A DNA stretch of 64,000 bases, from contig NZ_QTWS01000002.1 in the NCBI RefSeq assembly GCF_003461245.1, positions 124,001 through 188,000 on the forward strand, read 5' to 3'. The notes beneath the pieces are model-generated. The model had not been told where the DNA came from. It ran no database searches and worked only from the letters and a program-made list of their open reading frames with translations. The position numbers and the translations under genes are program-made. Each line of letters begins with the position of its first letter. Within the stretch, counting starts at the first letter, position 1. Positions 33,495 through 53,629 of the stretch are shown here, one piece after another. The DNA comes from Blautia sp. AF19-10LB (GTDB lineage: Bacteria > Bacillota > Clostridia > Lachnospirales > Lachnospiraceae).

Positions 33495-34889
33495 TTAAAT
33501 AACGCGGAGTCCGCCATCTGCCAGCATGCAGCGTCTTCTTCTGGTGAAGCTTCTTGCACAGGTCAGGCCTTCACCGGTTGGTCCTGCAATTGTCATAGTC
33601 GTATGACCTTCACCGCCGATTCCGACACCGACAAGCGTTGCTGCATTTTTGGTAAAGATGGTTGTTTCGATTTCTTTTGCAAATCTTGTCATATGGTCTA
33701 CGTTCTTGGAGAACATGGATGCTGTGTGGCGGTTTCCGTTTTCTGCAACTACAGCATATTTTACACAGTCCTCAAAAGTCTTGCAGCGGACGATCGGCAT
33801 GATCGGCATCAGCTGTTCTACAAGTACAAATGGATGATCATGCGGTACTTCACAGAGAACCAGCCTGGTGTCTGCATCTTTGATTCCGATGCTTTCAAGA
33901 ATCAGAGAAGCGTCCTTGCCGACCCATTTCTTGTTTACGGAATATTTGCCGTCTTTTTCCAGGAAAACAACTTTGAGAAGCTGCTCTGTCTCCTGCGGAG
34001 TGATAAGATGTGCACCGCAGGCACACATCTTGCGGATCAGCTCATCTGCCACATTGTCCATAACGAAGGTTTCTTTTTCTGCCAGACACAGAAGGTTATT
34101 ATCAAAGGATGCCCCTCTGTAAATCTCAGATGCTGCTTTGTCAAGATCAGCAGTGTCATCTACTACAACCGGAGGATTTCCGGCTCCTGCACCGATGGTC
34201 TTTTTGCCGGATTTAAGAAGTGCATTTACCATTCCCATGCCTCCGGTACCAACCATCAGACGGATCTTCGGGCTGGCAGTCAGTTTGTTGACTGCTTCCA
34301 TATCCGGCTTTCTCTGCATGGTGATGAGGTTTGCAGGACCTCCGTTCTCTACGATTGTTTTGTGCAGGATCTGCAGGCAGACAGCGCAGACTTTCTTTGC
34401 GCCCGGATGTACGTTGAATACAACAGCATTTCCGCCGCCGATCATGCTGATGGTGTTATTGATGATGGTTTCTGTCGGATTTGTAGACGGTGTAATTGCA
34501 CCGATAACGCCAAACGGAGCCTGTTCTTCGATCATAAGACCGGAATCACCGGAAATCGCATCTGTTACAAGACATTCCACACCCGGTGTCTTGTCGATAA
34601 CGGCAAGGTTCTTGGTGATCTTATCCTCATAACGTCCCATACCGGTCTCTTCGTGGATCATTTTTGCGAACATCGGGGCATTTTCTCTTGCCACAACACG
34701 GATTGCCTCGATAATGCGGCGTCTGTCTTCTACTTTGTAATTCATGTACCAGTCTCTCTGTGCGATGTATGCGGCATCGATTGCATCGTTTACGTCCTCA
34801 AATACACCCTGGTCACTCTTACAGGAAATATCCAGATTTGTTTTCATCAGAACTTCTCTGACTATGTTTTTGATCATGATCTCATCCAT
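33495..34889 (-). CDS. CoA-acylating aldehyde dehydrogenase, PduP/EutE family, with encapsulation peptide
   Basis: Oxidises a short aldehyde to acyl-CoA with NAD+ and CoA inside a microcompartment. 464 residues. The N-terminus MDEIMIKNIVREVLMK is an amphipathic helix, joined by a short linker to the catalytic domain at about residue 28, as in PduP. The catalytic Cys is C268 in DNNLLCLAEKE, and the dinucleotide site GTGGMGMVN is near 214-222. Last gene of the BMC operon. If DeoC makes acetaldehyde, the product is acetyl-CoA. Confidence 0.9.
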   Translation of the reverse strand: MDEIMIKNIVREVLMKTNLDISCKSDQGVFEDVNDAIDAAYIAQRDWYMNYKVEDRRRIIEAIRVVARENAPMFAKMIHEETGMGRYEDKITKNLAVIDKTPGVECLVTDAISGDSGLMIEEQAPFGVIGAITPSTNPTETIINNTISMIGGGNAVVFNVHPGAKKVCAVCLQILHKTIVENGGPANLITMQRKPDMEAVNKLTASPKIRLMVGTGGMGMVNALLKSGKKTIGAGAGNPPVVVDDTADLDKAASEIYRGASFDNNLLCLAEKETFVMDNVADELIRKMCACGAHLITPQETEQLLKVVFLEKDGKYSVNKKWVGKDASLILESIGIKDADTRLVLCEVPHDHPFVLVEQLMPIMPIVRCKTFEDCVKYAVVAENGNRHTASMFSKNVDHMTRFAKEIETTIFTKNAATLVGVGIGGEGHTTMTIAGPTGEGLTCARSFTRRRRCMLADGGLRVI

Positions 34890-34929
34890 GGATCGTTTTC
34901 TCCTTTCTTTATTCTTCTTTATTCTGTTA

Positions 34930-34963
34930 AAAACGCCTCTGTCCGGAATATCCAGGCAGAGGC
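34930..34963 (-). terminator. Terminator-like hairpin inside the BMC operon
   Basis: GCCTCTG (34935-34941) pairs with CAGAGGC (34957-34963); on the minus strand GTTTTTAAC follows. It lies between the shell gene and the aldehyde dehydrogenase gene, so it probably lowers expression of the latter relative to the shell. Confidence 0.55.
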
Positions 34964-35019
34964 ATTTAAAACTGCTTGACGTAGCGGCCGCTCATGTATC
35001 GCGGTCTTTCTTTATTTGA

Positions 35020-35298
35020 TTATTTTACAGTAGGAAGAATTTTTTCTACGTCAGTGTGCGGCCTTGGGATTACGTGAGTTGCTACTAACTCACCAAGTCT
35101 GGATGCAGCTGCGCTTCCGCTCTCTACGGCTGATTTAACAGCTCCTACATCTCCACGAACCATAACTGTTACCAGTCCGGATCCGATTTTTTCTGTTCCG
35201 ACAAGTGCAACGTTAGCTGCTTTACACATCTGGTCTGCTGCTTCGATCGCTGCTGTAAGTCCTCTGGTTTCTACCATTCCTAATGCTTCCTGTGTCAT
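35020..35298 (-). CDS. BMC-H microcompartment shell protein (PduA/EutM-like)
   Basis: Single-domain hexameric shell protein of 92 residues. It opens [20 protein letters not shown] and ends [15 protein letters not shown], very close to PduA/EutM. The pore loop KIGSG is intact, so the pore is of the small polar-metabolite type. It is the only shell gene in the window; no trimeric BMC-T or pentameric BMC-P gene is seen. It lies 22 nt after the GatD-like gene. Confidence 0.95.
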
Positions 35299-35320
35299 GA
35301 TGATCTCCTCCTAATCTCTC

Positions 35321-36385
35321 TTACATTTCCGGTTTGAATAATACTTTTGTGAACACTTCTGTTCTGTTGAACATCATTTCAAATACTTCTTTGCAGTCCT
35401 CCAGACGAACACGATGTGTGATCAGTGGATTTACATTCATCTGACCTGTGCTCATGAATTCAAGTCCGCTCTTCCACTCGTTGATCGGCAGTGGATTGAT
35501 AGAAGAGTTCCAGCTTCCGTGGATGGTAAGCTCACCACGAAGGATAGCCTGGATTACTTTGTTTGGATAAGTTACGTCGTCGTATGTAATACCGCCGTAT
35601 ACAACTTCACCGTTCTTCTTGCAGGATGCTACCGCCTGAACGTGTGTGATCTTGTTTCCGGCAAATTCAATTGCGATATCTACGCCTTCACCGCCTGTCA
35701 GTTCTTTGATCGCTGCCACAGCGTCTGTCTTCATTCCGTTTACGCCAGCTGTTGCGCCAAGACGTTTTGCAAGTGCAAGTTTATCGTCTGCAACATCTAC
35801 TGCGATAACCTTTGTGCAGCCAAGTGCACGGAGCCACTGAACACAGATAAATCCGATTGCGCCAAGTCCGAAAACTGCTGCTGTCTTGCCAGCTTCCATA
35901 CGGCATTTACGAACTGCGTGGAGACCAACAGATACAGGGTCTGTGAAGGAACCTTCTTCATAATCTACGTTGTCCGGTAATTTCAGGCAGTTTGCAGATT
36001 CTACAACTACATATTCTGCCATGGCACCATCTCTTCTTGATCCATAGTAATCATAGTGATCGCAGAGGTGAGACTGTCCAACTTTACAGTACTGGCATTC
36101 GCCGCACGGGATCAGAGGCATAACGGAAACTCTGTCACCTACTGTCAGGTTATTCTTTACTTTATCGCCGCAGTCTACGATCTGGCCTGCAAATTCATGT
36201 CCGATCGTTGTCGGGAAATGGTAAGTTCCTTTTACCATTACCCGCGGAATATCAGATCCGCAAACACCGCAGCTTTTTACTTTGATCAGTACCTGTGTAT
36301 CTTTCTCAATATGAGGAACGTCTACCTCCACACATCTGATATCTTTTGGAGCAAATAAACGAACCGCTCTCATTTTCTGTGCCAT
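35321..36385 (-). CDS. Zinc medium-chain dehydrogenase, GatD-like (polyol-phosphate dehydrogenase)
   Basis: 354-residue MDR alcohol dehydrogenase. Catalytic zinc residues are in GVCGSD and GHEFAG; the structural-zinc cysteines are in CGECQYCKVGQSHLC; NAD-binding GLGAIG is near residue 173. The blocks SDIPRV, GSRRDG and GSWNSSINPLP match galactitol-1-phosphate 5-dehydrogenase more than simple alcohol dehydrogenases. It probably oxidises a sugar-alcohol phosphate. No N-terminal extension, so it is likely cytosolic. Within the BMC operon. Confidence 0.82.
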   Translation of the reverse strand: MAQKMRAVRLFAPKDIRCVEVDVPHIEKDTQVLIKVKSCGVCGSDIPRVMVKGTYHFPTTIGHEFAGQIVDCGDKVKNNLTVGDRVSVMPLIPCGECQYCKVGQSHLCDHYDYYGSRRDGAMAEYVVVESANCLKLPDNVDYEEGSFTDPVSVGLHAVRKCRMEAGKTAAVFGLGAIGFICVQWLRALGCTKVIAVDVADDKLALAKRLGATAGVNGMKTDAVAAIKELTGGEGVDIAIEFAGNKITHVQAVASCKKNGEVVYGGITYDDVTYPNKVIQAILRGELTIHGSWNSSINPLPINEWKSGLEFMSTGQMNVNPLITHRVRLEDCKEVFEMMFNRTEVFTKVLFKPEM

Positions 36386-36418
36386 TTATATGCCATCTCC
36401 TTTTCTTACTTATACTTA

Positions 36419-37177
36419 TTAGTATGTACTTTTGCTTGTCTCACCTTTTGCAATTGCAACTCCGGCACTTGTTCCCAGTCTGTTTGCACCTGCTGCGATC
36501 ATTGCCTTTGCATCTTCCGGTCCTCTGACACCGCCGGATGCTTTCACTCCCATATCCGGTCCTACAGTCTTTCTCATCAGTGCAACGTCCTCAACAGTTG
36601 CTCCACCTGTGGAGAATCCTGTAGATGTCTTAACAAAGTCTGCACCGGCTTCTTTGGCGATCTGGCAAACCTGAACTTTTTCTTCGTCTGTCAGAAGGCA
36701 GGTTTCGATGATAACTTTGACGATGGCTCTTCCATGAACGGCAGTTACAAGATCAGCGATATCTTTCTTTACGAACTGCCAGTTTCCAGATTTGATCTTG
36801 CCGACATTTACTACCATATCTACTTCATTGGCACCGTTTTCTATTGCTTCGTTTGCTTCAAAAATTTTGGATTTTGTGGTAGTTGCTCCCAGAGGAAAAC
36901 CGATTACTGTACACACTTTTACCCCGCTTCCACGAAGCTCCTCATAGCATAATGGAACATAACATGGGTTTACGCACACAGAACAAAAATGATATTCCTT
37001 TGCCTCCTGGCATAATTTTTTGATCTGTTCTTCACTTGCATTCTGTTTCAGCAGTGTGTGGTCGATCATTCCGGCTACGCTTCCGGCTGTATTAAAGGAT
37101 GCACTGACTCCGCCCTGATTCTGCATAGTTTTCAGAATCTCCGTCGTAATCTTACTGACTAACTGTTCCATCTCCAT
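36419..37177 (-). CDS. deoC: Deoxyribose-phosphate aldolase with encapsulation-peptide-like N-terminus
   Basis: Class I aldolase that cleaves 2-deoxyribose-5-P to glyceraldehyde-3-P and acetaldehyde. Schiff-base Lys is K183 (FVKTSTG), the relay Lys K212 (VKASGG), and the active-site Asp D120. The 252-residue chain has about 35 extra N-terminal residues: an amphipathic helix [18 protein letters not shown] and a Gly/Ser/Ala linker before MIDHTLLK. This is the signature enzyme of the locus. GAGGAATAAGCT precedes the start. Confidence 0.92.
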
Positions 37178-37240
37178 AGCTTATTCCTCACTTTCCATTT
37201 GTAATTGCTTGTATATGGTAAACTCCCTTCTGCAAGGGTC

Positions 37241-38029
37241 TTACTCTCGTTTACTTACTTCGATGATCTTTCGGAATTTCTCCGGTTTCAGGCTGGCTCC
37301 TCCGATCAGGAATCCATCTACTCCCGGGCAGCTTCCAATGTCTGCGGCATTCTTCTCATTGACACTTCCACCATACAGAAGCGGGATATCGCTTCCGGTG
37401 AGTTCCGAAAGAACTGCCTTAAGATATCTGTGTGTTTCTGTGATTTCTTCCGTAGAAGCACTTACACCGGTTCCGATCGCCCAGATCGGTTCATATGCGA
37501 TCTGTATGTATGGAATCCTGTCTGTCGAAAGTCCCTCCAGGTCTTTCTCAAGCTGTTTTCTTAATACATTCTTCCACTGTCCGCTCTTTCTCTCTTCCAG
37601 ATTTTCACCGATGCAGAGCATTACGGAAAATCCTTCTTTGAGTGCCGCCTGTATTTTCTTCTGAATCTCTTCATCCGTTTCGTTGTAGTAGCTGCGGCGT
37701 TCGGAATGTCCCACCAGCAGACAGTCACAGCCGAGTTCTTTAATCATAGGAAGAGAAATCTCTCCTGTATATGCCCCGCTTTCCTTATAGTGGAAATTCT
37801 GCGGTCCATAGATAATCCCTCTCTTACGGAACTCTCCTGCAAGAACTGCCAGGGTTGTATACGGCGGAAAGATCATTACCTTACCGTCGACCGGTCCCAG
37901 TTTCTCCAGAAATTCCATGCCTTCTCTGACCGTCATATTCATCTTCCAGTTTCCTGCAACGATCAGGGATCGGTTCATATATCTGGCTACTGTCTCCCGG
38001 ATGATCTGGTCCAGATTCTTCTGTTCCAT
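37241..38029 (-). CDS. tpiA: Triosephosphate isomerase with N-terminal encapsulation-peptide-like helix
   Basis: Interconverts glyceraldehyde-3-P and dihydroxyacetone-P. The catalytic set is intact: K29 (NWKMN), H108 (VGHSERR) and E180 (YEPIWAIGTG), with the YGGSV phosphate loop. About 18 residues (MEQKNLDQIIRETVARYM) precede the usual TPI start with no linker. The start at 38029 follows GGAGG. A promoter and operator-like repeats lie directly upstream. An alternative role like the tetrulose-phosphate isomerase EryH of erythritol use cannot be excluded. Confidence 0.92.
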   Translation of the reverse strand: MEQKNLDQIIRETVARYMNRSLIVAGNWKMNMTVREGMEFLEKLGPVDGKVMIFPPYTTLAVLAGEFRKRGIIYGPQNFHYKESGAYTGEISLPMIKELGCDCLLVGHSERRSYYNETDEEIQKKIQAALKEGFSVMLCIGENLEERKSGQWKNVLRKQLEKDLEGLSTDRIPYIQIAYEPIWAIGTGVSASTEEITETHRYLKAVLSELTGSDIPLLYGGSVNEKNAADIGSCPGVDGFLIGGASLKPEKFRKIIEVSKRE

Positions 38030-38087
38030 AGATCCTCCTTCCTGCCTTACAAAAGCAGGCAATTTTGTATTCACCTTTTGCATTAGT

Positions 38088-38122
38088 TTACAAATGTTCC
38101 TGTGTTTATATCATTTGTAACT
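38088..38122 (-). promoter_or_regulatory. Inverted repeat, candidate SorC-family operator
   Basis: TTACAAATG (38088-38096) and CATTTGTAA (38112-38120) form a perfect 9-bp inverted repeat just downstream of the internal promoter -10. The same CATTTGT core occurs downstream of the promoters at 43636 and 46208. Confidence 0.5.
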
Positions 38123-38131
38123 TCTGTGCTT

Positions 38132-38374: not shown

Positions 38375-38424
38375 GTTCTTCCTCCTACTGTGTATAACAT
38401 TTATTAATAAAAGAAAATCTGGTC

Positions 38425-38458
38425 AAAAAAGGCCGGTCAAATCCATGACCAGCCTTTT
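38425..38458 (-). terminator. Intrinsic terminator between transporter and BMC enzymes
   Basis: AAGGCCGGTCA (38429-38439) and TGACCAGCCTT (38446-38456) pair with one mismatch, followed on the minus strand by TTTTTT. It follows the binding-protein gene and precedes the HPr-like gene. Confidence 0.7.
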
Positions 38459-38474
38459 CCTGCAAAATTTTCTA

Positions 38475-39479
38475 TTATTTCATTGCTGCGAAAGCAAGGC
38501 TGTCGTCTACATAATCGGCTACATTGCTGCTGTCAATAACGCCAGTACCTGCATCTACAAATTCGTCATAATCTTCCCCATTCAGAACTTTGAGAGTTGT
38601 GTTCATAGCAACTTTCAGCAGAGAACCTGGGTCATTCATGGTTGTGATGGAATATTTACCATCCTGGATAGCCATAACAGCTTCCATAAGTCCGTCTACA
38701 CCTGTTACCTTAACGCCTTCGATTCCTTTTTCTTCGAGAACCTGAGCTGCTCCAAGGGACATATCATCATTGTGTCCGTAAACAGCAACGATGCCGTCAT
38801 TACTCTGAAGTAAGTCCTGTGCAGCTGTAACAGCTTTGCTTCTTGTGTAATCGCAGTATGCGGACTGGATTACTTCAAGGCCAGGAGCTTCTGCGATCGC
38901 AGCTTCGAAGCCGTCACGTCTTGCCATCATAACGGTATCACCGGCTGTTCCCTGAATCTCAAGGATCTTGCCTTCTGCCTTGTCCTTACCGCCGAGTTCT
39001 TCTACAAGAGCTTCTCCTACGAGTCTTCCCATCTCTTCGTTGTCACGGCCTACATAAGCGGTGTTTCCATCATTTACATTACGGTCAACGGTGATAACCG
39101 GAATGTCTGCTTTCTGGCAGGCTTCGATTGCCGGAGCAACACCTTCTGCATTGATCGGATTCAGGATCAGCGCATCGATTCCACTGGAGATCATGTCGTT
39201 GATATCGTTGTTCTGTTTGGTAACATCATCATCCGCACTTACACAGACAAAATCAACACCAAGCTGTTTTGCATAATCTTCTGCAACTTCTTTCATGGTT
39301 ACATAGAACGGAGAAGCCAGTGTGCACTGTGAGAAGCCGATCTTGTAATCTGCTTTTCCTGTGTAATCAGCCAGAACATCTTCTGTGGATGCAGCGTCGT
39401 CTGCCGCGTAAACGCAAACTCCCATAGACCCGATCATTGCCATTGCTGTCAGAATTGCAAGGAAACCTTTTCTTTTCAT
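38475..39479 (-). CDS. Ribose-type ABC transporter substrate-binding protein (BMC operon)
   Basis: Periplasmic-binding-protein-like domain of the RbsB family, 334 residues. A signal peptide ends near VYAADD. Core motifs such as DDVTKQNNDINDMISSGIDAL, the NPINAEGV hinge and VTVDRNV are typical for pentose/polyol binders. Last of the kinase-RbsA-RbsC-RbsB run. No lipobox is seen. The sugar cannot be named from sequence. Confidence 0.88.
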   Translation of the reverse strand: MKRKGFLAILTAMAMIGSMGVCVYAADDAASTEDVLADYTGKADYKIGFSQCTLASPFYVTMKEVAEDYAKQLGVDFVCVSADDDVTKQNNDINDMISSGIDALILNPINAEGVAPAIEACQKADIPVITVDRNVNDGNTAYVGRDNEEMGRLVGEALVEELGGKDKAEGKILEIQGTAGDTVMMARRDGFEAAIAEAPGLEVIQSAYCDYTRSKAVTAAQDLLQSNDGIVAVYGHNDDMSLGAAQVLEEKGIEGVKVTGVDGLMEAVMAIQDGKYSITTMNDPGSLLKVAMNTTLKVLNGEDYDEFVDAGTGVIDSSNVADYVDDSLAFAAMK

Positions 39480-39549: not shown

Positions 39550-40497
39550 TTATTTTTTTGCATCGATAGCTCTGTTAAGAAGAAGAGCTGCGATGATAAT
39601 GATACCTTTGGCGATCTGCTGATAGAAAGAAGCAAGACCTACAAGGTTAAAGATATTGGTGATGATCTGCAGAAGGAATACACCGCCGAATGTTCCAAGC
39701 ATGGAACCAATACCACCGGAAAGGCTGGCGCCGCCGATTACGGATGCTGCGATCGCATTCAGTTCCATTCCATCACCTGCTGTCGGCTGTCCTGTTGCCA
39801 GCCAGGATGCGGTAAGAACACCTGCAAACGCTGCCAGGGCTGCACAGAGAACATAAGTGATCGCATAGTTTCTTGTTGTTTTGATACCGGAAAGTGTTGC
39901 TGCCTCACGGTTTCCGCCGATTGCAAACAGGCTTCGGCCAAAGGATGTATATTTCAGAAGCAATGCAAAGAAGATCGTCAGAATGATCCAGATGATACCG
40001 CTGACAGATACTTTGCCGATAAAACCGCCGCCGATGAATTTGAAATCATTTGAAAGTCCGAAAACAGGGACACCTTGTGTAGTCAGAAGGGCAGCACCTC
40101 GGGCAATCTCCATCATTGCAAGGGAAGCAATGAAATCCGGAAGTCCGAATTTGGCGATAAGGATACCTGTAACAAGACCAAGTGCCGCTCCGAGAACCAC
40201 ACCTGCAAGTACAGCTATAATAATAGGAACATTTTTACTTACAAGGATCGCACTGATCATTCCTGCAAACGCTGCAACAGATCCAACAGACAGATCAATA
40301 CCGGAGATGATGATTACAAGGGTCATACCAATGGCTACGATTCCCGGTATTGATGCCTGCTGCAAGAGGTTCAGTACATTCCCGACTGTCAGGAAATTTG
40401 GTGATAATATAGAAGCAATAACGATAAATACGATCAGCAGTACCAGTAAGTTATATTTTTTAAGCAGATCGCCGATCTTCATAGGTTCTTTTCTCAT
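39550..40497 (-). CDS. Ribose-type ABC transporter permease (BMC operon)
   Basis: RbsC-family permease, 315 residues, about eight to ten membrane segments. The GIDLSVGSVAAFAGM and NREAATLSGI motifs and the GGASLSGGIGS block are characteristic. It overlaps the ATPase gene by four bases (ATGA). Confidence 0.92.
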   Translation of the reverse strand: MRKEPMKIGDLLKKYNLLVLLIVFIVIASILSPNFLTVGNVLNLLQQASIPGIVAIGMTLVIIISGIDLSVGSVAAFAGMISAILVSKNVPIIIAVLAGVVLGAALGLVTGILIAKFGLPDFIASLAMMEIARGAALLTTQGVPVFGLSNDFKFIGGGFIGKVSVSGIIWIILTIFFALLLKYTSFGRSLFAIGGNREAATLSGIKTTRNYAITYVLCAALAAFAGVLTASWLATGQPTAGDGMELNAIAASVIGGASLSGGIGSMLGTFGGVFLLQIITNIFNLVGLASFYQQIAKGIIIIAALLLNRAIDAKK

Positions 40498-42002
40498 GAT
40501 TCGTTCCTCCCCGTAACAGATACTGATAAAATTTTGTCTGGATTAAAGTTTTCTTTTGATGAAGTCATAACTTCTTTGCCATCGAACATTACAATGATAT
40601 TGTCACAGATTCGAAGCAGTTCATCCAGTTCTGAAGAAACCACGATCATACTCTTACCTTCGTCTGCGAGGTTACGGATGATCTTGTAGATCTCCTCTTT
40701 TACCATAACGTCGATTCCCTGTGTCGGCTCATCGATCAGAAGAATATCACAGTCACGGAACAGCCATTTCGCAATGATGACCTTCTGCTGATTTCCACCG
40801 GAAAGGTTCTGAATCACCGTATTGATCGACGGTGTTTTTACATTGAGACTCTTCTTATAAAGTTCACAGGTTTCGCGGATCACGCCATAGTTGATGACTC
40901 CATTTTTCTTGCACTTGTCAAGTGCAACCATTGTCATGTTCTCCCAGACAGGAAGGATCTGGACAAGTCCCTGTGTCTTGCGGTTCTCCGGGATCAGACC
41001 GATCTTGTTTGCGATCGCCTCACCGGTATGTCTGAAATGTACCGGTCTGCCATGAAGCTTGATTTCTCCTTTTTCGTATGGGTCTGCTCCAAAAATCGAA
41101 CGGATAACTTCTGTTCTGCCCGCACCAACCAGACCATACAGTCCGAGAACTTCTCCTTTATGAAGATCGAAGGAAATATTCCGTACTTTATGATTGGTAA
41201 GCCCTTTTACTTCGAGGACTTTTTCATCATTCAGAGGTTTTGCTTCTGTATATTCGTTTTTCTGGCTGACTTTGGCTCCTGTCATGTATTCCACCAGATG
41301 ATCTTCGTTGATCTCTGATGCGTTACGACAGGCCACAAACTTGCCGTCGCGGAGAATCGTGATACGGTCTCCGACCATAAACAGTTCTTCCAGATGATGT
41401 GAGATGTAGATCAGGGTGATACCCTTGGCTTTCAGGTCTTTGATCAGCTGAAGCAGTGTTTCAAACTCTCGTTTGGAAAGCGTTGAAGACGGCTCATCCA
41501 TAACGATCAGCTTCGCATTGCTGGCAAGTGCCTTCATGATCTCTGTCATCTGCCTCTGGCCAATGTTCAGGCTGCTGACTTTGGCTTTGACATCGATCTG
41601 CATGTTCATCTCATCTGCAATTTCCTGTGTTTTCTTATAGACCTCTTTCCAGTCTACAGTTCCTAATTTTGTCTTCGGGTAATTGTTGATATATACGTTT
41701 TCACCTACCGTAAGTTCATTTACCAGAGAAAGTTCCTGATAAATAACGGAGATGCCTTTTTTCTTACGTTCCAGTGTTCCATGCGGTTTGAGTTTCTCAC
41801 CGTCAAAAATGATCTCGCCGCCATCCTCTACATAAGCTCCTGAAAGAATCTTCATCAATGTAGATTTACCGGCTCCATTGGCGCCGATCAGACAGTGTAC
41901 TTCGCCTCTTCTTACCGAAAAGTCCACTCCATCCAATGCCTTAACTCCTGGAAACAACTTATCGATCTTTCGCATTTCCAGAATGTTGTCACGTTCCTGC
42001 AC
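40494..42002 (-). CDS. Ribose-type ABC transporter ATPase (BMC operon)
   Basis: RbsA-type ATPase of 502 residues with two fused nucleotide-binding domains. The first Walker A is GANGAGKST with a signature LNIGQRQ. The second half has the altered GLVGAGRT loop and LSGGNQQK signature, as is normal for this family. GTG start at 42002 behind GGAGGAG. Confidence 0.92.
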   Translation of the reverse strand: MQERDNILEMRKIDKLFPGVKALDGVDFSVRRGEVHCLIGANGAGKSTLMKILSGAYVEDGGEIIFDGEKLKPHGTLERKKKGISVIYQELSLVNELTVGENVYINNYPKTKLGTVDWKEVYKKTQEIADEMNMQIDVKAKVSSLNIGQRQMTEIMKALASNAKLIVMDEPSSTLSKREFETLLQLIKDLKAKGITLIYISHHLEELFMVGDRITILRDGKFVACRNASEINEDHLVEYMTGAKVSQKNEYTEAKPLNDEKVLEVKGLTNHKVRNISFDLHKGEVLGLYGLVGAGRTEVIRSIFGADPYEKGEIKLHGRPVHFRHTGEAIANKIGLIPENRKTQGLVQILPVWENMTMVALDKCKKNGVINYGVIRETCELYKKSLNVKTPSINTVIQNLSGGNQQKVIIAKWLFRDCDILLIDEPTQGIDVMVKEEIYKIIRNLADEGKSMIVVSSELDELLRICDNIIVMFDGKEVMTSSKENFNPDKILSVSVTGRNES

Positions 42003-43580: not shown

Positions 43581-43608
43581 ACATTTGTTACTATGAACAT
43601 TTGTTACT
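43581..43608 (-). promoter_or_regulatory. Tandem operator-like repeats in BMC operon leader
   Basis: ACATTTGTTACT occurs at 43581-43592 and again at 43597-43608, a 16-bp period. Both lie downstream of the -10 at 43636, where a bound repressor would block transcription. The CATTTGT core recurs near tpiA and the iron alcohol dehydrogenase. Confidence 0.55.
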
Positions 43609-43635
43609 GCACTTGTATCGTTTGTTTATAATTGA

Positions 43636-46133: not shown

Positions 46134-46165
46134 ATTGACTTCCTCCATTCATCCTAAGCCTTTCT

Positions 46166-46180
46166 ATGAACAAATGATAC
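46166..46180 (-). promoter_or_regulatory. Operator-like CATTTGT site before the iron alcohol dehydrogenase
   Basis: GAACAAATGATAC (46168-46180), i.e. GTATCATTTGTTC on the minus strand, lies about 20-30 nt downstream of the expected transcription start, as do the sites at 38088 and 43581. Confidence 0.4.
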
Positions 46181-46207
46181 GCATTAAGTAACTTTCGTTC
46201 TTGATTC

Positions 46208-46250: not shown

Positions 46251-47378
46251 TTATGGGTGAACCAGTACTTTCATTGCGTTTCTGTCTCTGATTGCCAGGA
46301 AGCCTTCTGAAATATCCTTCAGATCATAGACATCTGTTACATATTTTTCCAGGTTCAGTTTCCCCTCTTCCACATATCTGATGATTTCTTTCATCATTCC
46401 TGCGGTAGTTGCATGAACACCATGAATGGAAAGTTCTTTGTAATGAATCAGATTACTGTCCAGATATCCTTTTCCGTCGCCTGCAATTCCACCGAACAGG
46501 CTGATTCGTCCTCTCTTGGCTGCGATGATCTGTGCTTCTGTGTGGGCACTCGGAACAGAAAGTGCTGTGATTACAACATTTGCGCCTCTTCCGTTCGTGA
46601 TTCGTTTCACTTCCTCTACAGTGTCCTGCTCCTTCGGATTGATTACGATAATGTCCGGAATCATTTTCTTTGCAATCTCAATTCTTGGTTTTGCAATTTC
46701 TACCATGATAATCTTGGATGCACCTGCAAGACGGGCAAGTTCTGCATGAATACAGCCAATGTATCCACTTCCATAGATGACTACATAATCATCTGGCTGA
46801 ATATTCAGATAGGTCTGTGCGTTAAATGCACATGCTGCCGGTTCAGAAAGTGCTGCTGACATATCAGAAACACTGTCCGGAATTTTGATCACATTTCCCA
46901 TATCAATAACGTGCTTCGGAATTTCCATTTTTTCTGCAAAAGCACCTTCATACTGGAAACCAAATGTCTTAAGAGAATCGCACATATTGGTGTGACCGGT
47001 CTGGCAGGACCAGCATTTGCCGCATCCTACTGCCGGTGCTACCGTTACACGGTCTCCTTTTTTGAATCCTTTTCCTTCTGCATACGCACCGACATGTATT
47101 ACAACTCCTGCCGATTCATGTCCCATGATCCTCGGTGGGGTAATTTTGGCATTGCCTTTCATAAAAGTTCTGAAATCGGTTCCGCAGATAGATGCATAAT
47201 TAATTTTTACAATCATGTTATCTGCTTTCGGAACTGGTTCCGGCATCTCTTTGATCACCATTTTTCTTTCTTCATTCATCACATATGCTTTCATTTTGCC
47301 GGAAACAGTTGTTTCTGATACATATTCTGTAATTGTATTCCGTACAATAGATTCTACCTGTGATTTTGTCAAACTCAT
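46251..47378 (-). CDS. Zinc alcohol/polyol dehydrogenase with encapsulation-peptide-like N-terminus
   Basis: 375-residue MDR dehydrogenase. The extension MSLTKSQVESIVRNTITEYV forms an amphipathic helix and is followed by a short linker before the normal start MKAYVMNEER. Zinc residues are in ICGTDF, GHESAG and CGKCWSCQTGHTNMC; NAD-binding GSGYIG is near residue 210. It belongs to the threonine/sorbitol dehydrogenase group. Its tag suggests a role inside the compartment, such as recycling NADH by making alcohol, although its operon lacks a shell gene. Confidence 0.86.
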   Translation of the reverse strand: MSLTKSQVESIVRNTITEYVSETTVSGKMKAYVMNEERKMVIKEMPEPVPKADNMIVKINYASICGTDFRTFMKGNAKITPPRIMGHESAGVVIHVGAYAEGKGFKKGDRVTVAPAVGCGKCWSCQTGHTNMCDSLKTFGFQYEGAFAEKMEIPKHVIDMGNVIKIPDSVSDMSAALSEPAACAFNAQTYLNIQPDDYVVIYGSGYIGCIHAELARLAGASKIIMVEIAKPRIEIAKKMIPDIIVINPKEQDTVEEVKRITNGRGANVVITALSVPSAHTEAQIIAAKRGRISLFGGIAGDGKGYLDSNLIHYKELSIHGVHATTAGMMKEIIRYVEEGKLNLEKYVTDVYDLKDISEGFLAIRDRNAMKVLVHP

Positions 47379-47401: not shown

Positions 47402-48937
47402 TTATTCATTCGCAAGATCCTGGATCCTCTTATAGAAATCATGCAGCTCTGTCACATATTTCTTATACAGACTCATGTATTTATAATACCGTTTTCCATT
47501 CTCCGGATCTGGTGTGTAGATTGTCTTGCTGCTTACAAATTTCTTTGCGGTTTCTTTAAGATCTCCAAATACACCAATTGCATTTCCGGCGAGAATGGAT
47601 ACGCCCCACATTGCCACGTCATCTCTGTTGATGGTCGTATACTTTTTGTTCTGGATATCTGCACTGAGCTGCGTCCAGACCGGTGATTTTGCACCGCCTC
47701 CTATAATTTTGACCAGATCAATCGTATATTCCGGATACAGTCTCTCAATGCTGTTCATACATAACGTAAAATCATAAGTAAAGCTTTCAATCAGAGCTTT
47801 GTAAAAATGCGCTTTGCTGTGGCTCCAGTCATATCCCATCCACATTCCACGAAGTGCACCATCAGATGGCATGGAATTTCCTCCAAGGAGTCCGATCGCC
47901 ATCAGTCCGTCACATCCAGGCGGGATGTTTTTCATTTCTTCTTCCATCTGTGCAAACATCTCTTTGGAAGTGATTCCTTCGTGTTTCACAAAAGTGTTCA
48001 TAAACCAGTCCAGTGTAATTCCTGAACCTGCAACAAAGTGTGTCGCATAGAAGTCACCTGGAATCGCCGATGGCAGAACATCCAGTCTGCGTTCTTCCAT
48101 ATCCGGTCGATATTCCGGTACACAGGTGCTGACTTCGCCGTAAGATGAAGCTTCAAAAATCGTATCACCATAGTCCACAATTCCTGCCCCCAGGCATCCT
48201 GCTACTTTGTCACCTGCACCGGAAACCAGCGGAATTCCCTCTGTAAACCCTAACTCTGCTGCCATTTTTTTGTTCAGATGTGCACAGATATGATTTGAAT
48301 TTACGATTCTCGGAAGATATTTCTGGTCCAGATGGATCGCATCACAGATTTCATCTGACCAACGGTCGTTCTGCACATCTGCAAGTCCTGTCCACTCTGT
48401 AAACGATCTGTCCATTACTGCATCTTCTGTAGAGATATCGCCCAGTTTTCCGATTACATAGCCACTGATCATCAGATACTTCGCAATCTTTTCGCTTTCT
48501 TTCGGATATTCGCTGCGGAACCATTCTACCTTTGGTGCCATCTGTGGAAAGTTGGTTCCTCCGACTCTCAGGAACTCATCTTTTAATTCTTTCATCTGCC
48601 GCTCTGCATATGGCATATAACGGCTGTCCAGGGAACAGGACCAGGTTGTGATATCATTCCAGTCTTTATCAACTCCCATGAATCCTGACATCTGTCCGGT
48701 AAAAGAAATCGCTGCGATATTCTTCTTTCTGTCACCGATTTTTTCTCCGACTTTTTTCATGCACGCAATTACCGATGCAAGAAGTTCTTCTCCTTTCTGA
48801 ATAAAAACTCCCGGCTTTGGACGGTAGTCTTTCACAGGTTCCATCTCAATTGCAATGCACTGACTTTCTGTATTGTAAACCCCTGCTTTGATAAAGCTTG
48901 TACCAAGGTCAACCGCCATTAATAATATTTCTTTCAT
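47402..48937 (-). CDS. FGGY-family carbohydrate kinase 2 (xylulokinase-like)
   Basis: 511-residue kinase with MAVDLGTSFIKAGVY at the N-terminus, SFTGQMSGFMGVD in the middle and IIGGGAKSPVWTQLSADI at the C-terminus. The chosen start at 48937 follows AAAGGGC; a frame opening 49 codons earlier runs through the upstream gene and is not used. Substrate unknown; a pentulose or pentitol is likely. Confidence 0.87.
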   Translation of the reverse strand: MKEILLMAVDLGTSFIKAGVYNTESQCIAIEMEPVKDYRPKPGVFIQKGEELLASVIACMKKVGEKIGDRKKNIAAISFTGQMSGFMGVDKDWNDITTWSCSLDSRYMPYAERQMKELKDEFLRVGGTNFPQMAPKVEWFRSEYPKESEKIAKYLMISGYVIGKLGDISTEDAVMDRSFTEWTGLADVQNDRWSDEICDAIHLDQKYLPRIVNSNHICAHLNKKMAAELGFTEGIPLVSGAGDKVAGCLGAGIVDYGDTIFEASSYGEVSTCVPEYRPDMEERRLDVLPSAIPGDFYATHFVAGSGITLDWFMNTFVKHEGITSKEMFAQMEEEMKNIPPGCDGLMAIGLLGGNSMPSDGALRGMWMGYDWSHSKAHFYKALIESFTYDFTLCMNSIERLYPEYTIDLVKIIGGGAKSPVWTQLSADIQNKKYTTINRDDVAMWGVSILAGNAIGVFGDLKETAKKFVSSKTIYTPDPENGKRYYKYMSLYKKYVTELHDFYKRIQDLANE

Positions 48938-48966
48938 ACTCAATCTGCCCTTTCTGAATTTGTGCG

Positions 48967-49953
48967 TCAGTCTGATGCATAAAGGATTCCCCATTCTTTT
49001 CGGGTCTTTTCTATCAGTTCTCCAATTGCGATCGACTCTTTCCAGGTGAAATGCGGACACTCCTTCTTTCCCTGTTCCAGACATTTCATAACTTCCTGTA
49101 TTTCATACTGAAATCCTGTTTCACAGTACTCCTCACTGAAACATTCTTTTTTTCCATTGTTTAAAATCAGCTTTGCCGTGGTCGGATGCCAGAATTCCGG
49201 TCCTATCAGGATCCTGCCTTCCTCTCCTACGATCTCCACTTCTGCATTTCCTATCTGATTAAATGCTCCGCTCAGTATTGCTGCTCTGCCTTCTGAATAC
49301 GTGAGAAGCATTTGGAAACATTCATCTACCTCTCCGTTTGATTTCATATTGGAATAAATCTTCTGTGGGCCTTCCGGGAATACCAGATACGCCATTCCAA
49401 GAGAATAAATTCCAACATCCCGAAGTGCACCTGCTGCATATTTGATTCCGGCTTTCCAGGGCTGCCAGTCATCAATATCCGGTTTGATATCAAAGCCGGC
49501 ACGGACTGTCAGTGGCTTTCCGATCCGTCCTTCTTTGATCCAGTTTCTTGTCTGTATGACTGCCGGAAAACATCTCGTCCACATGCCTTCCATCAGGAAT
49601 GTATTCTTTTCTTTTGCTTTGTTCAAAACCTGCGTAAGCTGCTTTCCATTATCAACCATTGGTTTTTCGCTCAGTACAGGGATTCCTCTTTCCAGAATCT
49701 CCATAATATATTCAAAATGACAGGAATTCGGAATTGCCAGATATACGATATCGATTTTTTCTGTATCCAGCATTGTTTTCAGATCTGTGTAGACTTTTTC
49801 ACAACCATATTTCTGTGCAAATTTTTTGCCTGAATTTTCACTTCTGGAAACAACAGCTTCCAGAATCGCATCCTCCACTGCACGCATCCCGGATACAAAC
49901 TGATTCGCGATATATCCTGTCCCGATAATCGCCCATTTTGTTTTTACTGCCAT
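48967..49953 (-). CDS. Gfo/Idh/MocA-family oxidoreductase
   Basis: 328-residue NAD(P)-dependent sugar dehydrogenase. The Rossmann motif GTGYIANQF is at the N-terminus and the family motif EKPMVDN follows near residue 98. It may oxidise or reduce the incoming sugar before the kinase. The ATG at 49953 is preferred to a GTG at 49965, which would leave too little room after AAGGGG. Confidence 0.87.
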   Translation of the reverse strand: MAVKTKWAIIGTGYIANQFVSGMRAVEDAILEAVVSRSENSGKKFAQKYGCEKVYTDLKTMLDTEKIDIVYLAIPNSCHFEYIMEILERGIPVLSEKPMVDNGKQLTQVLNKAKEKNTFLMEGMWTRCFPAVIQTRNWIKEGRIGKPLTVRAGFDIKPDIDDWQPWKAGIKYAAGALRDVGIYSLGMAYLVFPEGPQKIYSNMKSNGEVDECFQMLLTYSEGRAAILSGAFNQIGNAEVEIVGEEGRILIGPEFWHPTTAKLILNNGKKECFSEEYCETGFQYEIQEVMKCLEQGKKECPHFTWKESIAIGELIEKTRKEWGILYASD

Positions 49954-49974
49954 ATCTTTCAGCACCCCTTATTC

Positions 49975-50024
49975 AGAAAAGCACCACATAATAACATTCT
50001 CTCGTTATCCTGCAGTGCTTTTCT
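49975..50024 (-). terminator. Stem-loop after the second binding-protein gene
   Basis: AGAAAAGCAC (49975-49984) pairs with GTGCTTTTCT (50015-50024) around a 30-nt loop. Probably partial termination that favours the binding protein over the enzymes. Confidence 0.5.
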
Positions 50025-50064
50025 CTTTTACCTGAAACTATATTTAATTAATGCAGGATTTCCT

Positions 50065-51117
50065 TTAGTATGTATTTCCGTCATACTGGTCGAGATTTTC
50101 TTCTGTGATGTTGTCGCCGCTTACATAGTAATGTTTTGCAACCTCATCTTCTTTTCCTGCCCAGATAAGTTCTGCACATTCCATTGCTTTGTTTGCGATC
50201 GTCTTCGGGAACTGTACCGGTGAGCAGAGGATCTGTCCTTCTTTGATCATATCGATATCATTCTGTGCACCATCGATATCTACTACAGAAATCTTGCCTT
50301 CCAGACCTGCTGCCTTGATTGCTGCCGCTGCACCCTGTGCTGTCGGAGAGTTGATTGCAAAAACTCCCTTTACATCCGGATAAGTCTGAAGGAAGGATTC
50401 CATAATACTCTGTGCATCTTCTACTACACCAAAAGCATCCTGGTCTGCTACGATCTCTACATTCGGATAAGACTCCTCGATCACTGACTTAAGACCTTCT
50501 ACACGCTCACGTACTGCCTGAAGTGTTGACCAGTTGATAACTACGATCTCACCTTCGCCGTCAATGGAATCACAAAGTGTCTGCGCTGCCATTTTTCCCA
50601 TTGCCACATTATCAGATTCTACAATAGATGCGATCAGATCTTTATCTTCTACGTTGGAATCAATCGCAATTACAGGAATGGAAGCTCTCTCTGCTTCCTG
50701 CAGTGCAGGTTTGATTCCATCTTTGTCAAGAGCATCTACAAAAATAACATCTACGCCTCTGGCAACCATCTGTGTGATATCCTCTACCTGTGTGTTGATA
50801 TCATTTGCCGGGTCAGGTGCAATCACTTCTGCATCAATACCGCCTTTTTCCAGTGTAGCTTTAACACCGTCGATCTCTGCGAGGAAAAATGCATTTGCAT
50901 GTGTCTGTACAGAAACACCGATTGTTTTGCCTTTGCTCAGTTCGGTAGCAGCAAACGGCAGTCCATCTTCCGCTTCAAGAGGGTCTACATAAACCACATC
51001 TTCATCCCCTGCGGCTTCTGCGGTCTCTTCTTCTGCAAATACTGATACTGCGGACACACTTCCCATACTGCATACCATTGCTGCTGTCATTAAAACTGCT
51101 ACTAACCTTTTTTTCAT
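50065..51117 (-). CDS. Ribose-type ABC transporter substrate-binding protein 2
   Basis: 350-residue RbsB-family binding protein with a signal peptide ending near FAEEE and an acidic linker after it. Motifs such as QTHANAFF, ITQMVARGVDVIFVD and IDSNVEDKDL are seen. It follows its permease. No clear lipobox. It differs strongly from the binding protein at 38475, so the two transporters probably take different ligands. Confidence 0.87.
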   Translation of the reverse strand: MKKRLVAVLMTAAMVCSMGSVSAVSVFAEEETAEAAGDEDVVYVDPLEAEDGLPFAATELSKGKTIGVSVQTHANAFFLAEIDGVKATLEKGGIDAEVIAPDPANDINTQVEDITQMVARGVDVIFVDALDKDGIKPALQEAERASIPVIAIDSNVEDKDLIASIVESDNVAMGKMAAQTLCDSIDGEGEIVVINWSTLQAVRERVEGLKSVIEESYPNVEIVADQDAFGVVEDAQSIMESFLQTYPDVKGVFAINSPTAQGAAAAIKAAGLEGKISVVDIDGAQNDIDMIKEGQILCSPVQFPKTIANKAMECAELIWAGKEDEVAKHYYVSGDNITEENLDQYDGNTY

Positions 51118-51155
51118 CCTTGAATCCTCCCTTGTTTGTTTTTTATATTAATTTT

Positions 51156-52133
51156 TTATTTTTTCTTTATCTGAAGATCAACGAATACTGCCCCGAGAAC
51201 TACAACGCCCTGACACACATACTGCCAGTAGAACGGCACGTTCATGAAATTCAGTCCACTGCTTAAAAGATCCATGATCAGTGCGCCGATAAAAGTGGCT
51301 CCGATTCTTCCAACACCACCACTCATACTGGTTCCACCTACAACTGCAGCTGCAATTGCAGTAAGCTCTGAGCCCTGTCCAAGTGTCGGCTGTCCACTGT
51401 ACAGTCTGGAACAGGAGATAACACCATAGATACCATACAAAAATCCAGCAAATGTATATACGATCCAGATAACTTTTTTGCTGTTGATTCCTGAGAATCT
51501 GGCAGCTTCTGCATTTCCGCCGATTGCATATACTTCACGGCCAAACTTTGTCTTATTGAGCAGAACATAAGTGATTGCCAGAATAACAGCTGTATAGATA
51601 ATCGGATATGGAATCGTATTCATTAAATATCCGTTTCCGATTTCTCCGAAATCACCGGAAATACGAATCGGTGTACCTGCAGAACAGGTGTAGGCAATTC
51701 CTCGTCCAATGTTCATGGTTCCAAGAGTTACAATAAATGGTGGAATTTTTGTATTTGCAACGATTCCACCGTTTATTGCACCAAACACAGTTGCGATCAG
51801 AACACCTACCAGAAGTGCACCTGCTGGATGCAAACCATTGGAGATCAGGAGTGCACAATAGGTACTTGCACATGCCATCAGAGCACCAACAGAAAGGTCG
51901 ATACCACCTGTGATAATGATGAGCGTTACACCAAATGCTGCAATACTGTCAAGACTGGTGATTCTTAAAATATTGATAACATTTGCTCTTCCCCAGAATT
52001 TAAATTCTGTCAGAAATCCAAATACGAGAAAGATTCCCAGTGCTCCTGCCAGAATGCCTTTATTCAGGTATAAATACTTCATAACCGGATTTTTTGGAAC
52101 GCCTCCGGAGATTTTTTCCTTCTTTGTTGTCAT
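51156..52133 (-). CDS. Ribose-type ABC transporter permease 2
   Basis: RbsC-family permease, 325 residues, eight to ten membrane segments, with GGIDLSVGALMA, GNAEAARFSGI and GGTSMSGGVGRIG. Four-base ATGA overlap with the ATPase gene. Confidence 0.92.
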   Translation of the reverse strand: MTTKKEKISGGVPKNPVMKYLYLNKGILAGALGIFLVFGFLTEFKFWGRANVINILRITSLDSIAAFGVTLIIITGGIDLSVGALMACASTYCALLISNGLHPAGALLVGVLIATVFGAINGGIVANTKIPPFIVTLGTMNIGRGIAYTCSAGTPIRISGDFGEIGNGYLMNTIPYPIIYTAVILAITYVLLNKTKFGREVYAIGGNAEAARFSGINSKKVIWIVYTFAGFLYGIYGVISCSRLYSGQPTLGQGSELTAIAAAVVGGTSMSGGVGRIGATFIGALIMDLLSSGLNFMNVPFYWQYVCQGVVVLGAVFVDLQIKKK

Positions 52134-53629
52134 TTGTTGGCACCTCCTGTTGCATATTTTAATACCAGTTCTTCTGACAGTTCTTCTCTTGCCAGTTCAC
52201 CTGTCTTCTGTCCTTCATGCATTGTAATCACTCTTGTTGAAAGATTCAGGATCTCCGGAAGTTCTGATGATATGAAAATAATTCCTACCCCTTCTTCTGC
52301 CAGCTCTGTGATCATTTTATAGATCTCAAATTTTGCCCCTACATCAATTCCCCTTGTCGGTTCATCCAGAATCAGAATCTTCGGGTTGGTAGCCAGGCAT
52401 TTTGCAAGAACAACCTTCTGCTGATTTCCACCGGATAACTGCCCTGTAATGTGCGCTGCAGAAGTTGCTTTTGTCCGCATTTTTTTCATATATTTTTCTA
52501 CGATCTCTGTTTCCTGCTTTTTGTCTGTTTTTACTCCGTGGATCAGTTTGTCCAGAATCGCCAGAACTGTATTAAACCGAATATCCTGTATGAGAACCAG
52601 ACCCTGTTCTTTTCTGCTCTCAGGTGCCAGAATAATACCTGCTTCAATTGCTTCCTTTGGATTTGATACTTTAAACTCTCTGCCCTCCAGCCATGCGTTG
52701 TAAGCAGCTCCTTTATCCACACCGAACAAATACCTCATAATCTCTGTTCTGCCGCTTCCCACCAAACCGTAGAAGCCAAGGATTTCACCCTGATGCAGTT
52801 CAAATGAAATATCTTTGAGAAATTTCCCATCATCCAGATGTTCCACTCTCAGAAGTTCTTTGCCTTTTGTCAGGTTTACTTCCGGATAAACATCTTTCAT
52901 TTCACGTCCAACCATGAGACGGATCACATCATCGTAAGTTACCTCCCCAATATTCCTGGTTGCTATGTACTGTCCATCACGGAACACCGTAATCCTGTCT
53001 GAGATCTGGAATACTTCATCCATACGATGTGAAATATAAATGATTGCAACTCCCTGATTCTTAAGCATCTGAACAAATTCAAGAAGCTGTACTGTCTCAC
53101 GCTCGGTAAGAGATGCTGTCGGCTCATCCATGATCAGGATCTTGCTGTCAACCGAGAGTGCTCTTGCGATCTCTACCATCTGCTGCTGTGCTACTGTCAG
53201 ATTTGCCGGATAATCATTTACGTGGATCACATCCTGAACGCCCAGTCTTTCCAGAACTTTATAAGCATCTGCTTCCAGTTTCCTGTCATCTACAAATCCA
53301 CTCTTTTTGGATGGCATCCTGCCGAGATAAATATTCTCTGCAACTGTCATATATGGAACAAGACTCAGTTCCTGATGAATAACTGAAATTCCAAGTTCTT
53401 TTGCATCACTTACTTTTTCAATTTTTACTTCTTTTCCATTGATAAAAATCTGTCCTTCTGTCGGTGTATGAATTCCCGCAAGAATTTTTATCATGGTTGA
53501 CTTTCCGGCTCCATTTTCTCCGAGAAGTGAATGGATTTCTCCTTTTCTCAGATCAAACTGGATCTTATCCAGAGCTTTTACACCGGAAAAGTGTTTAGAA
53601 ATATTTTTCATTTCCAAAATAGTTTCCAT
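52130..53629 (-). CDS. Ribose-type ABC transporter ATPase 2
   Basis: RbsA-type double ATPase, 499 residues. First domain Walker A GENGAGKST; second domain with GLVGSGRTE and the signature LSGGNQQKV, Walker B ILILDEPTRGID. The start at 53629 follows GGGG at good spacing; a GTG two codons earlier is possible. First gene of the second sugar operon. Confidence 0.92.
   Translation of the reverse strand: METILEMKNISKHFSGVKALDKIQFDLRKGEIHSLLGENGAGKSTMIKILAGIHTPTEGQIFINGKEVKIEKVSDAKELGISVIHQELSLVPYMTVAENIYLGRMPSKKSGFVDDRKLEADAYKVLERLGVQDVIHVNDYPANLTVAQQQMVEIARALSVDSKILIMDEPTASLTERETVQLLEFVQMLKNQGVAIIYISHRMDEVFQISDRITVFRDGQYIATRNIGEVTYDDVIRLMVGREMKDVYPEVNLTKGKELLRVEHLDDGKFLKDISFELHQGEILGFYGLVGSGRTEIMRYLFGVDKGAAYNAWLEGREFKVSNPKEAIEAGIILAPESRKEQGLVLIQDIRFNTVLAILDKLIHGVKTDKKQETEIVEKYMKKMRTKATSAAHITGQLSGGNQQKVVLAKCLATNPKILILDEPTRGIDVGAKFEIYKMITELAEEGVGIIFISSELPEILNLSTRVITMHEGQKTGELAREELSEELVLKYATGGANK

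Follow-up and report, generated by a model that had tools for sequence, protein, structure and literature searches.

Does a gene cluster with a single bacterial microcompartment (BMC) shell gene encode a compartment of its own, and which sugar would be degraded in it? The question is raised by a locus of Blautia sp. AF19-10LB, located in a stretch of 64 kb (contig NZ_QTWS01000002.1, positions 124,001 to 188,000; here called the window) and built around DeoC, a predicted deoxyribose-phosphate aldolase (DERA). The cluster spans 53635 (RbsA2) to 33495 (a CoA-acylating aldehyde dehydrogenase, AldDH) on the minus strand, SorC alone being encoded on the plus strand. Every gene named in the original prediction, which had been made from the sequence of this stretch, was present according to profile matches. 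Beyond these we found an HPr-like open reading frame (ORF), a Gfo/Idh dehydrogenase, a sensor triad and three operator-like sites (Table 1; profile and family scores are quoted against model cut-offs). The reading that we favor, with modest confidence, is that of a satellite-like metabolosome cassette related to the sugar-phosphate-utilizing (SPU) loci, residing in a Blautia-type bacterium and obtaining its shell pentamers from elsewhere in the genome.

Missing shell components and relation to SPU loci

A tblastn search of all 64 kb used pentamer, BMC-T, PduL, PduS, Pta, FucA-like and diol dehydratase sequences of relatives as queries. Five pentamer references detected no BMC-P pentamer in the 64 kb (best E 0.48), the BMC-T queries returned the known BMC-H and no BMC-T, and PduL was not found (nothing better than E 0.48). 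PduS, Pta and diol dehydratase gave no match at E 1 or better, and for a class II FucA-like aldolase nothing convincing was obtained (best E 0.95). With one BMC-H and no pentamer in the window the cassette alone would be unable to close a shell, and it is thus satellite-like. A satellite-like BMC locus, as defined in Axen 2014, encodes a single one of the two shell domains and has other BMC-type enzymes alongside; the window contains BMC-H without BMC-P, and BMC-type enzymes adjoin it. The self-sufficient microcompartment locus of the original prediction was not borne out, since the search of the 64 kb gave no pentamer.

A single scan of a collection of species genomes, covering close relatives only, yielded 55 DeoC loci (genomes, contigs and loci are numbered with G, C and L). 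The nearest relatives found are three Candidatus Blautia assemblies (L001–L003) with DeoC identities of 86–87%. A BMC-H relative was present in the fetched stretch of 4/55 DeoC loci, namely L001, L002, L003 and L029 of Robinsoniella.

SPU loci are described, in the text portions of the sources, as containing a DeoC-type aldolase and an acylating aldehyde dehydrogenase, with acetaldehyde as the proposed intermediate, and one published locus, from Atribacteria, contains a triosephosphate isomerase (PMC8217296, PMC4207490). DeoC-type aldolase and RpiB are named there as the two enzymes common to all SPU subtypes (PMC8217296). The cassette shares the DeoC-type aldolase (PF01791), the acylating AldDH and, with the one SPU locus, the triosephosphate isomerase (TPI). 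It differs from the loci as described in these text portions in being without RpiB, pentamer and phosphotransacylase (PTAC), and in having kinases, a GatD-like dehydrogenase and CUT2 transporters; this distinction follows text descriptions and not locus diagrams, in which full loci such as L099 may figure. No RpiB (PF02502) is located within the cluster. The sole convincing RpiB of the window lies at 22433–22894, 10.6 kb from AldDH, and is 83–86% identical to the copies of G001 and G002. RpiB and cassette are found on different contigs in G001–G003, where these contigs are short (35–76 kb), and in Robinsoniella the cassette is located on a 962-kb contig and RpiB on others. We therefore rejected full SPU membership, as the cluster is without RpiB and a pentamer was not found in the window. 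Comparison with the catalogued SPU loci, as described in the excerpts, thus agreed in DeoC and AldDH but not in RpiB and pentamer, and the class as defined does not accommodate the cluster because RpiB lies outside it. The cassette may instead be described as an RpiB-less SPU relative whose front end consists of a dedicated kinase and dehydrogenase.

Satellite ethanolamine utilization (EUT) modules of HO, SPU3 and SPU6 are thought to widen the substrates of the main locus, according to the part of the source considered (PMC8217296). As in the cassette, enzymes and a shell gene are placed apart from the main locus; the EUT modules carry EutA/B/C and BMC-T in that description, whereas the cassette carries aldolase, TPI, AldDH and BMC-H.

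Similarity of the shell gene to class II-aldolase loci

The BMC-H of the window shares 97% identity with a BMC-H of G002:C57 and 95% with a BMC-H of G003:C18. Both loci contain a FucA-like class II aldolase, an AldDH, a tailed zinc alcohol dehydrogenase (ADH) and a pentamer, and a diol dehydratase is located close to them. These class II-aldolase loci and that of G004:C22 (BMC-H 82% identical to the window's) share with the cassette the families of AldDH and of a zinc ADH that has an N-terminal tail, but the class II aldolase replaces DeoC and they have their own pentamer, BMC-T and several BMC-H. The cassette does not belong to this GRM5/PVM-like type, no convincing FucA-like aldolase having been found in the window. 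The aldolase loci L099 (G391) and L100 (G498) together have four BMC-H, which are 72–79% identical to that of the window. In Robinsoniella the class II-aldolase locus has one BMC-H with 90% and another with 74% identity to the satellite BMC-H, whose identity to the copies of the window and of the Blautia satellites L001–L003 is 79–82%. The identity of satellite and main-locus BMC-H suggests a shared shell and, as far as sequences indicate, one common shell per cell. The BMC-H sequences were too short for a tree with firm branching, 2/18 inner branches being starred.

A pentamer gene is located elsewhere in 3/4 genomes having the satellite form, and in these three genomes one pentamer shares its locus with a FucA-like aldolase, AldDH and tailed zinc ADH. 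The pentamers of the cassette would most likely come from such a class II-aldolase (fucose/rhamnose-like) microcompartment of the same genome. It has to be considered whether the pathway is decayed or shell-free, with cytosolic enzymes and BMC-H as a leftover, since its core exists without a shell in G596, G750 and G867 and DeoC tails likewise occur without shells. Yet an intact BMC-H adjoins GatD in the window and in 4/4 satellite loci of relatives. Furthermore, while DNA identity ranges between about 72–90% among the eight BMC-H genes compared, the BMC-H of the window and the G001/G003 satellite and G002/G003 main copies share 95–97% of protein but 78–86% of DNA sequence, pointing to purifying selection. 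We regard a shell-free pathway as very unlikely.

Other shell genes were noticed in the same genomes. Low-scoring BMC-domain proteins are found in pairs or in tandem in G001:C179, G001:C14 and G001:C100 (L079, L070, L087), with more in G002–G004; they lie away from the cassette and the class II-aldolase loci, and the pair of G001:C179 adjoins a PduV-like GTPase. L088 of Robinsoniella (G004:C22, 884 kb) encodes a BMC-T (46% identity to the L099 one) and, adjoining it, a protein that resembles PduS, with no further known BMC gene within its 3.2 kb stretch. Class II-aldolase loci have a single pentamer, compared to three in genomes with the SPU kind of aldolase, where the three genes stand in a row (G391:C3 283861–284762, G498:C9 22262–23182, G994:C29 4189–5018).

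A putative common operator in front of three units

A 31-bp motif, ACAAAYGATA-N8-GKAACWWWYGTWM, occurs in three copies in the window, at distances of about 65 bp from the kinase gene FGGY1, 58 bp from TPI and 21 bp from the iron alcohol dehydrogenase gene (Fe-ADH), upstream in each case. No fourth copy was found in the window when up to 3 mismatches were allowed. These three copies served to derive the pattern, which biases a shuffle count; independent support comes from recurrence at matching places in relatives. In L001–L003 the operator was found in 9/9 places before the same three genes, with 0–4 mismatches: before FGGY1 it is exact in all three loci, before TPI it is exact in L002 and L003 with 1 mismatch in L001, and before Fe-ADH there is 1 mismatch in L002 and L003 and 4 in L001. 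Robinsoniella has 1- and 2-mismatch sites between FGGY1 and Fe-ADH, and before TPI just a 5-mismatch site. At ≤5 mismatches weaker sites appear elsewhere in some loci. This distribution suggests that the operator links the transporter-kinase (FGGY1), TPI-DeoC-GatD-shell and Fe-ADH units to SorC, which would bind the motif and control the three promoters as a repressor. The three-site 31-bp operator is new in this analysis.

Promoter-like sequences were noted at the TPI operator (TTGACA-17-TAAGAT, 38160–38132) and at the FGGY1 operator (TTGACA-17-TAATAT, 43664–43636). The sigma-70 scan gave 39 promoter-like sites with 36.6 expected by chance; the count being near chance, the sole interest of these two is their position beside operators.

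Enzymes and proposed pathway

The DERA catalytic motifs of DeoC are kept in 11/11 loci compared, DHT[LI]LK and GFPLG being present in all of them, and judged by these motifs DeoC is most likely a canonical DERA yielding glyceraldehyde 3-phosphate (G3P) and acetaldehyde. Active-site motifs of TPI are kept in 5/5 loci compared; a role as tetrulose-phosphate isomerase is disfavored by the intact motifs. The closest solved sequence to the GatD-like dehydrogenase is galactitol-1-phosphate 5-dehydrogenase (4a2c), with GSRRDG and GSW motifs in common. In 10/10 loci compared GatD has Asp (FTDP) where the second zinc dehydrogenase, ZnADH2, has Glu (LSEP). An ordinary ethanol dehydrogenase is disfavored by the motifs, by this Asp and by the presence of Fe-ADH behind the same operator. 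AldDH is 87% identical to that of L001, 83% to that of L003 and 51–52% to those of L099 and L100, and FGGY2 is 75% identical to the kinases of L099 and L109 of Robinsoniella. Fe-ADH is located beside SorC/FGGY1 in L001–L003 and beside FGGY1 in L109.

In the order of reactions that we infer, the CUT2 transporter would import a sugar, FGGY1 would phosphorylate it and the GatD-like dehydrogenase would then give the DERA substrate, by oxidation or rearrangement. DeoC would cleave this substrate to G3P and acetaldehyde, TPI would convert G3P to dihydroxyacetone phosphate, AldDH would form acetyl-CoA, and Fe-ADH would form ethanol for balance. The second operon of transporter, kinase and dehydrogenase would supply another sugar. 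An aldolase-centered metabolosome module for an imported, phosphorylated sugar, as originally predicted, gains support from the recurrence of FGGY1, GatD, CUT2 and DeoC in shell-bearing genomes, namely in Blautia, Robinsoniella, L099 and G994.

DeoC adjoins GatD in 9/11 loci having both, window included, with L099 and L157 as exceptions. This adjacency, and the DeoR model as top match of SorC, would also fit plain deoxyribose catabolism, with FGGY1 as deoxyribokinase, cleavage by DeoC and reduction of acetaldehyde by the GatD-like enzyme. However, FGGY kinases generally use ketoses or polyols, GatD retains the galactitol-1-phosphate dehydrogenase motifs and Fe-ADH already stands behind the same operator, so that we hold this explanation to be unlikely.

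In a pentitol or pentose route FGGY1 would phosphorylate a polyol, GatD would form the ketose phosphate and RpiB the aldopentose-5-phosphate, which DeoC would split into glycolaldehyde and G3P. Each family would keep its usual chemistry in that order, and G994 has the row GatD-FGGY1-CUT2 genes-RpiB-DeoC-AldDH. An aldose-ketose isomerase such as RpiB is by its chemistry unable to use a 2-deoxy sugar, which also speaks for a pentose. DERA promiscuity has been reported: in the excerpts of the source, DERA takes glycolaldehyde as donor with reduced activity, L20 and F76 of the E. coli enzyme were mutated to broaden the donor range, and the F76A variant gave 2'-OH adenosine (PMC11821518). On the other hand the RpiB of the window is far from the cluster, and we found no sequence sign of the donor preference needed. 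L20 and F76, which we take to be placed within the DHT[LI]LK and GFPLG motifs, appear unchanged in 11/11 loci. We consider this route unlikely. A further variant, in which one class II-aldolase shell serves two or three SorC-switched sugar pathways and DeoC perhaps splits a pentose phosphate, and not deoxyribose phosphate, to glycolaldehyde, a step hinted at by the RpiB-GatD-kinase row of G994, appears quite improbable.

Nucleoside salvage was rejected, as no supporting gene was found among the genes of the cluster, the remaining window being only partly annotated. Our search found no literature on microcompartments with Blautia and deoxyribose, nor with galactitol-1-phosphate.

We also attempted to name the substrate from the binding proteins, but the comparison of RbsB1 yielded no sugar. 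The best solved relative of RbsB1 is 4yv7 (285.9 bits), followed by 2ioy (162.5). RbsB1 clusters with 4yv7, and some of its presumed contact residues differ from those of ribose-binding proteins. We take 4yv7 to be a Mycobacterium protein with glycerol bound; no paper was found under its locus name.

Targeting-like tails

The N-terminus of AldDH (MDEIMIKNIVREVLMK) looks like a targeting peptide, and the tail of TPI is likewise similar to targeting peptides. ZnADH2 is tailed in the window, L001 and L003 and without a tail in L029, L099, L100, L101 and L145; the GatD-like dehydrogenase has no such tail. At least 33 residues precede the DeoC core in 8/8 loci with shell genes in the genome (in the window, an adjoining shell gene), compared to 8–9 residues in three shell-less GatD loci. 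By mechanical count the core motif is preceded by 28 or more residues in 11/55 DeoC loci, and a BMC-H relative was present in the fetched stretch of 4/11 of these long-tailed loci and of 0/44 others. In a hydrophobic-moment test the DeoC tail stood out from shuffles (8/2000 reach it). DeoC, TPI, AldDH and ZnADH2, with their targeting-like tails, would be loaded into a shell that is probably borrowed.

Proteins of 235 and 240 residues with a tail-like N-terminus and no Pfam match are encoded at L099:11211–11918 and L100:9543–10265.

Occurrence with and without a shell

At E 1e-110 or better GatD-like proteins were found in 3/397 sampled genomes of the family and 3/64 of the genus, in 4/391 of the class (G001 included) and in 3/58 of another order (two already counted). 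GatD-like is thus a rarer marker than DeoC. L099 is a full locus: it contains both kinases, a single RbsABC set, ZnADH2, GatD, TPI, AldDH, DeoC and Pta, along with a PduS-like protein, BMC-T, two BMC-H and three pentamers. L100 contains PduL, AldDH, a PduS-like protein, BMC-T, two BMC-H, DeoC, GatD, ZnADH2 and a further kinase, the three pentamers of G498 being located on another contig. RpiB was found on the contig of neither locus. Both thus resemble the cassette in GatD, ZnADH2, DeoC, AldDH, kinase(s) and CUT2 transporter, but differ by BMC-T, two BMC-H and a PduS-like protein in the locus, with Pta in L099 and PduL in L100. L157 (G994) has GatD (48%), a FGGY1 relative (40%), CUT2 genes, RpiB, DeoC and AldDH, the contig ending there; other contigs of G994 carry its three pentamers and its BMC-domain genes.

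GatD accompanies FGGY1 in the window, L001–L003, Robinsoniella, L099 and G994, and ZnADH2 accompanies FGGY2, a rhamnulokinase-like or a glycerol-kinase-like enzyme. The set of two kinases and two transporters had been called unrecognized. The pair FGGY1 and FGGY2 is not unique, as L099 and L109 of Robinsoniella have both kinases, their operons containing a single RbsABC set. L001 and L003 also combine two kinases with two transporter sets, the second kinase there being rhamnulokinase-like.

Observations weighing against the favored reading

Several observations speak against the favored reading. The weak step of the pathway is the conversion of the GatD product to the DERA substrate, and the genes of the cluster include no PfkB-type deoxyribokinase, nucleoside phosphorylase or mutase. 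AldDH lies behind a terminator-like hairpin, and a scan with ≤3 mismatches found the operator neither for AldDH nor for the second operon. The latter is perhaps controlled by the adjoining sensor triad, as its position would indicate; without the operator and with its own sensors it may respond to another sugar. G001 has the cassette and no pentamer was found in it, this genome being a metagenome-assembled one that may be incomplete. The name fucose/rhamnose-like is based on the class II aldolase and the neighboring diol dehydratase (G002, G003), and this aldolase scores under all family cut-offs it matches (at best 3-oxo-tetronate-4-phosphate decarboxylase 131.0, cut-off 250; L-fuculose-phosphate aldolase 116.9, cut-off 264), which makes the name a label by resemblance.

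DeoC, GatD, ZnADH2 and a FGGY kinase stand side by side in G596, G750 and G867, where no BMC-domain gene was found in the genome; the kinase of G596, the only one scored of the three, exceeds the glycerol kinase cut-off. The dehydrogenase pair with a kinase is accordingly a catabolic core separable from the compartment. Comparable DeoC tails are found in G1106, G1236, G1053, G945 and G005, which belong to the 8 genomes searched that all have 0 BMC-domain genes, and no GatD relative is annotated near these tailed DeoC. The hydrophobic-moment test failed for TPI (911/2000), AldDH (634/2000) and ZnADH2 (982/2000). The tail alone is thus no proof of encapsulation, and as such evidence it is weakened by its presence in BMC-free genomes.

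The tailed DeoC of BMC-free genomes belong to L151, L152, L156, L158 and L036, hinting that such tails may serve another role or predate shells.

Layout of the cluster and neighboring features

The features of the cluster are collected in Table 1. TPI probably starts at 38029, with AAGGAGG just 5' of it, and FGGY2 probably at 48937, judged by likeness to relatives. Both hairpins are absent from the listing of the consensus scan. The HPr-like protein aligns to the HPr family from profile position 21 on only; its gene is kept 3' of RbsB1 in L001–L003. Genes of threonyl-tRNA synthetase and SpoIIGA adjoin the cluster, suggesting a spore former. A T-box leader (19608–19826, RF00230, 96.8 bits) is located 5' of the prolyl-tRNA synthetase gene.

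Table 1. Features of the DeoC-centered cluster in the window
Feature	Position	Strand	Evidence
AldDH, CoA-acylating, PduP/EutE family	33495..34889	-	PRK15398/NF011927 645.8 bits, cut-off 403
Terminator-like hairpin and T run, between BMC-H and AldDH	34929..34967	-	RNAfold -22.4 kcal/mol
BMC-H, PduA/EutM-like, pore loop KIGSG	35020..35298	-	PF00936 106.3 bits, cut-off 24.5
GatD-like zinc dehydrogenase	35321..36385	-	nearest solved sequence 4a2c, 214.7 bits
DeoC (DERA), 35-residue N-terminal tail	36419..37177	-	TIGR00126 298.7, cut-off 117.3
TPI, N-terminal tail MEQKNLDQIIRETVARYM	37241..38029	-	PF00121 274.4 bits
Putative SorC operator, TPI upstream side	38088..38118	-	motif match
HPr-like protein, 74 aa	38150..38374	-	PF00381 24.7 bits, cut-off 23
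Terminator-like hairpin 3' of RbsB1	38425..38460	-	RNAfold -22.8 kcal/mol
RbsB1, CUT2-type sugar-binding protein	38475..39479	-	best solved relative 4yv7
RbsC1 permease	39550..40497	-	profile match
RbsA1/AraG-like ATPase	40494..42002	-	profile match
FGGY1 kinase, ribulokinase-like, under family cut-offs	42027..43529	-	PRK04123 297.4, cut-off 428
Putative SorC operator, FGGY1 upstream side	43595..43625	-	motif match
SorC-family regulator, top model DeoR (TransRegDeoRBac)	43903..44871	+	NF053881 305.6 bits, cut-off 420
Fe-ADH, lactaldehyde-reductase-like	44976..46148	-	TIGR02638 434.7, cut-off 523.15
Putative SorC operator, Fe-ADH upstream side	46170..46200	+	motif match
ZnADH2, second zinc dehydrogenase, N-terminal tail MSLTKSQVESIVRNTITEYV	46251..47378	-	profile match
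FGGY2 kinase	47402..48937	-	PF00370/PF02782
Gfo/Idh/MocA dehydrogenase	48967..49965	-	PF01408
RbsB2 sugar-binding protein	50065..51117	-	profile match
RbsC2 permease	51156..52133	-	profile match
RbsA2 ATPase	52130..53635	-	profile match
Sensor triad: periplasmic-binding-type protein, AraC-type response regulator, histidine kinase	53870..58403	-	PF13407, PF00072 + HTH_18, PF06580

Implications

Through aldolase loci with their own transporter, kinase and sugar-phosphate dehydrogenase the true substrate can be sought directly. A single shell gene matching the shell of another compartment would suggest that cargo sets are exchangeable between compartments, which would be useful for shell design.

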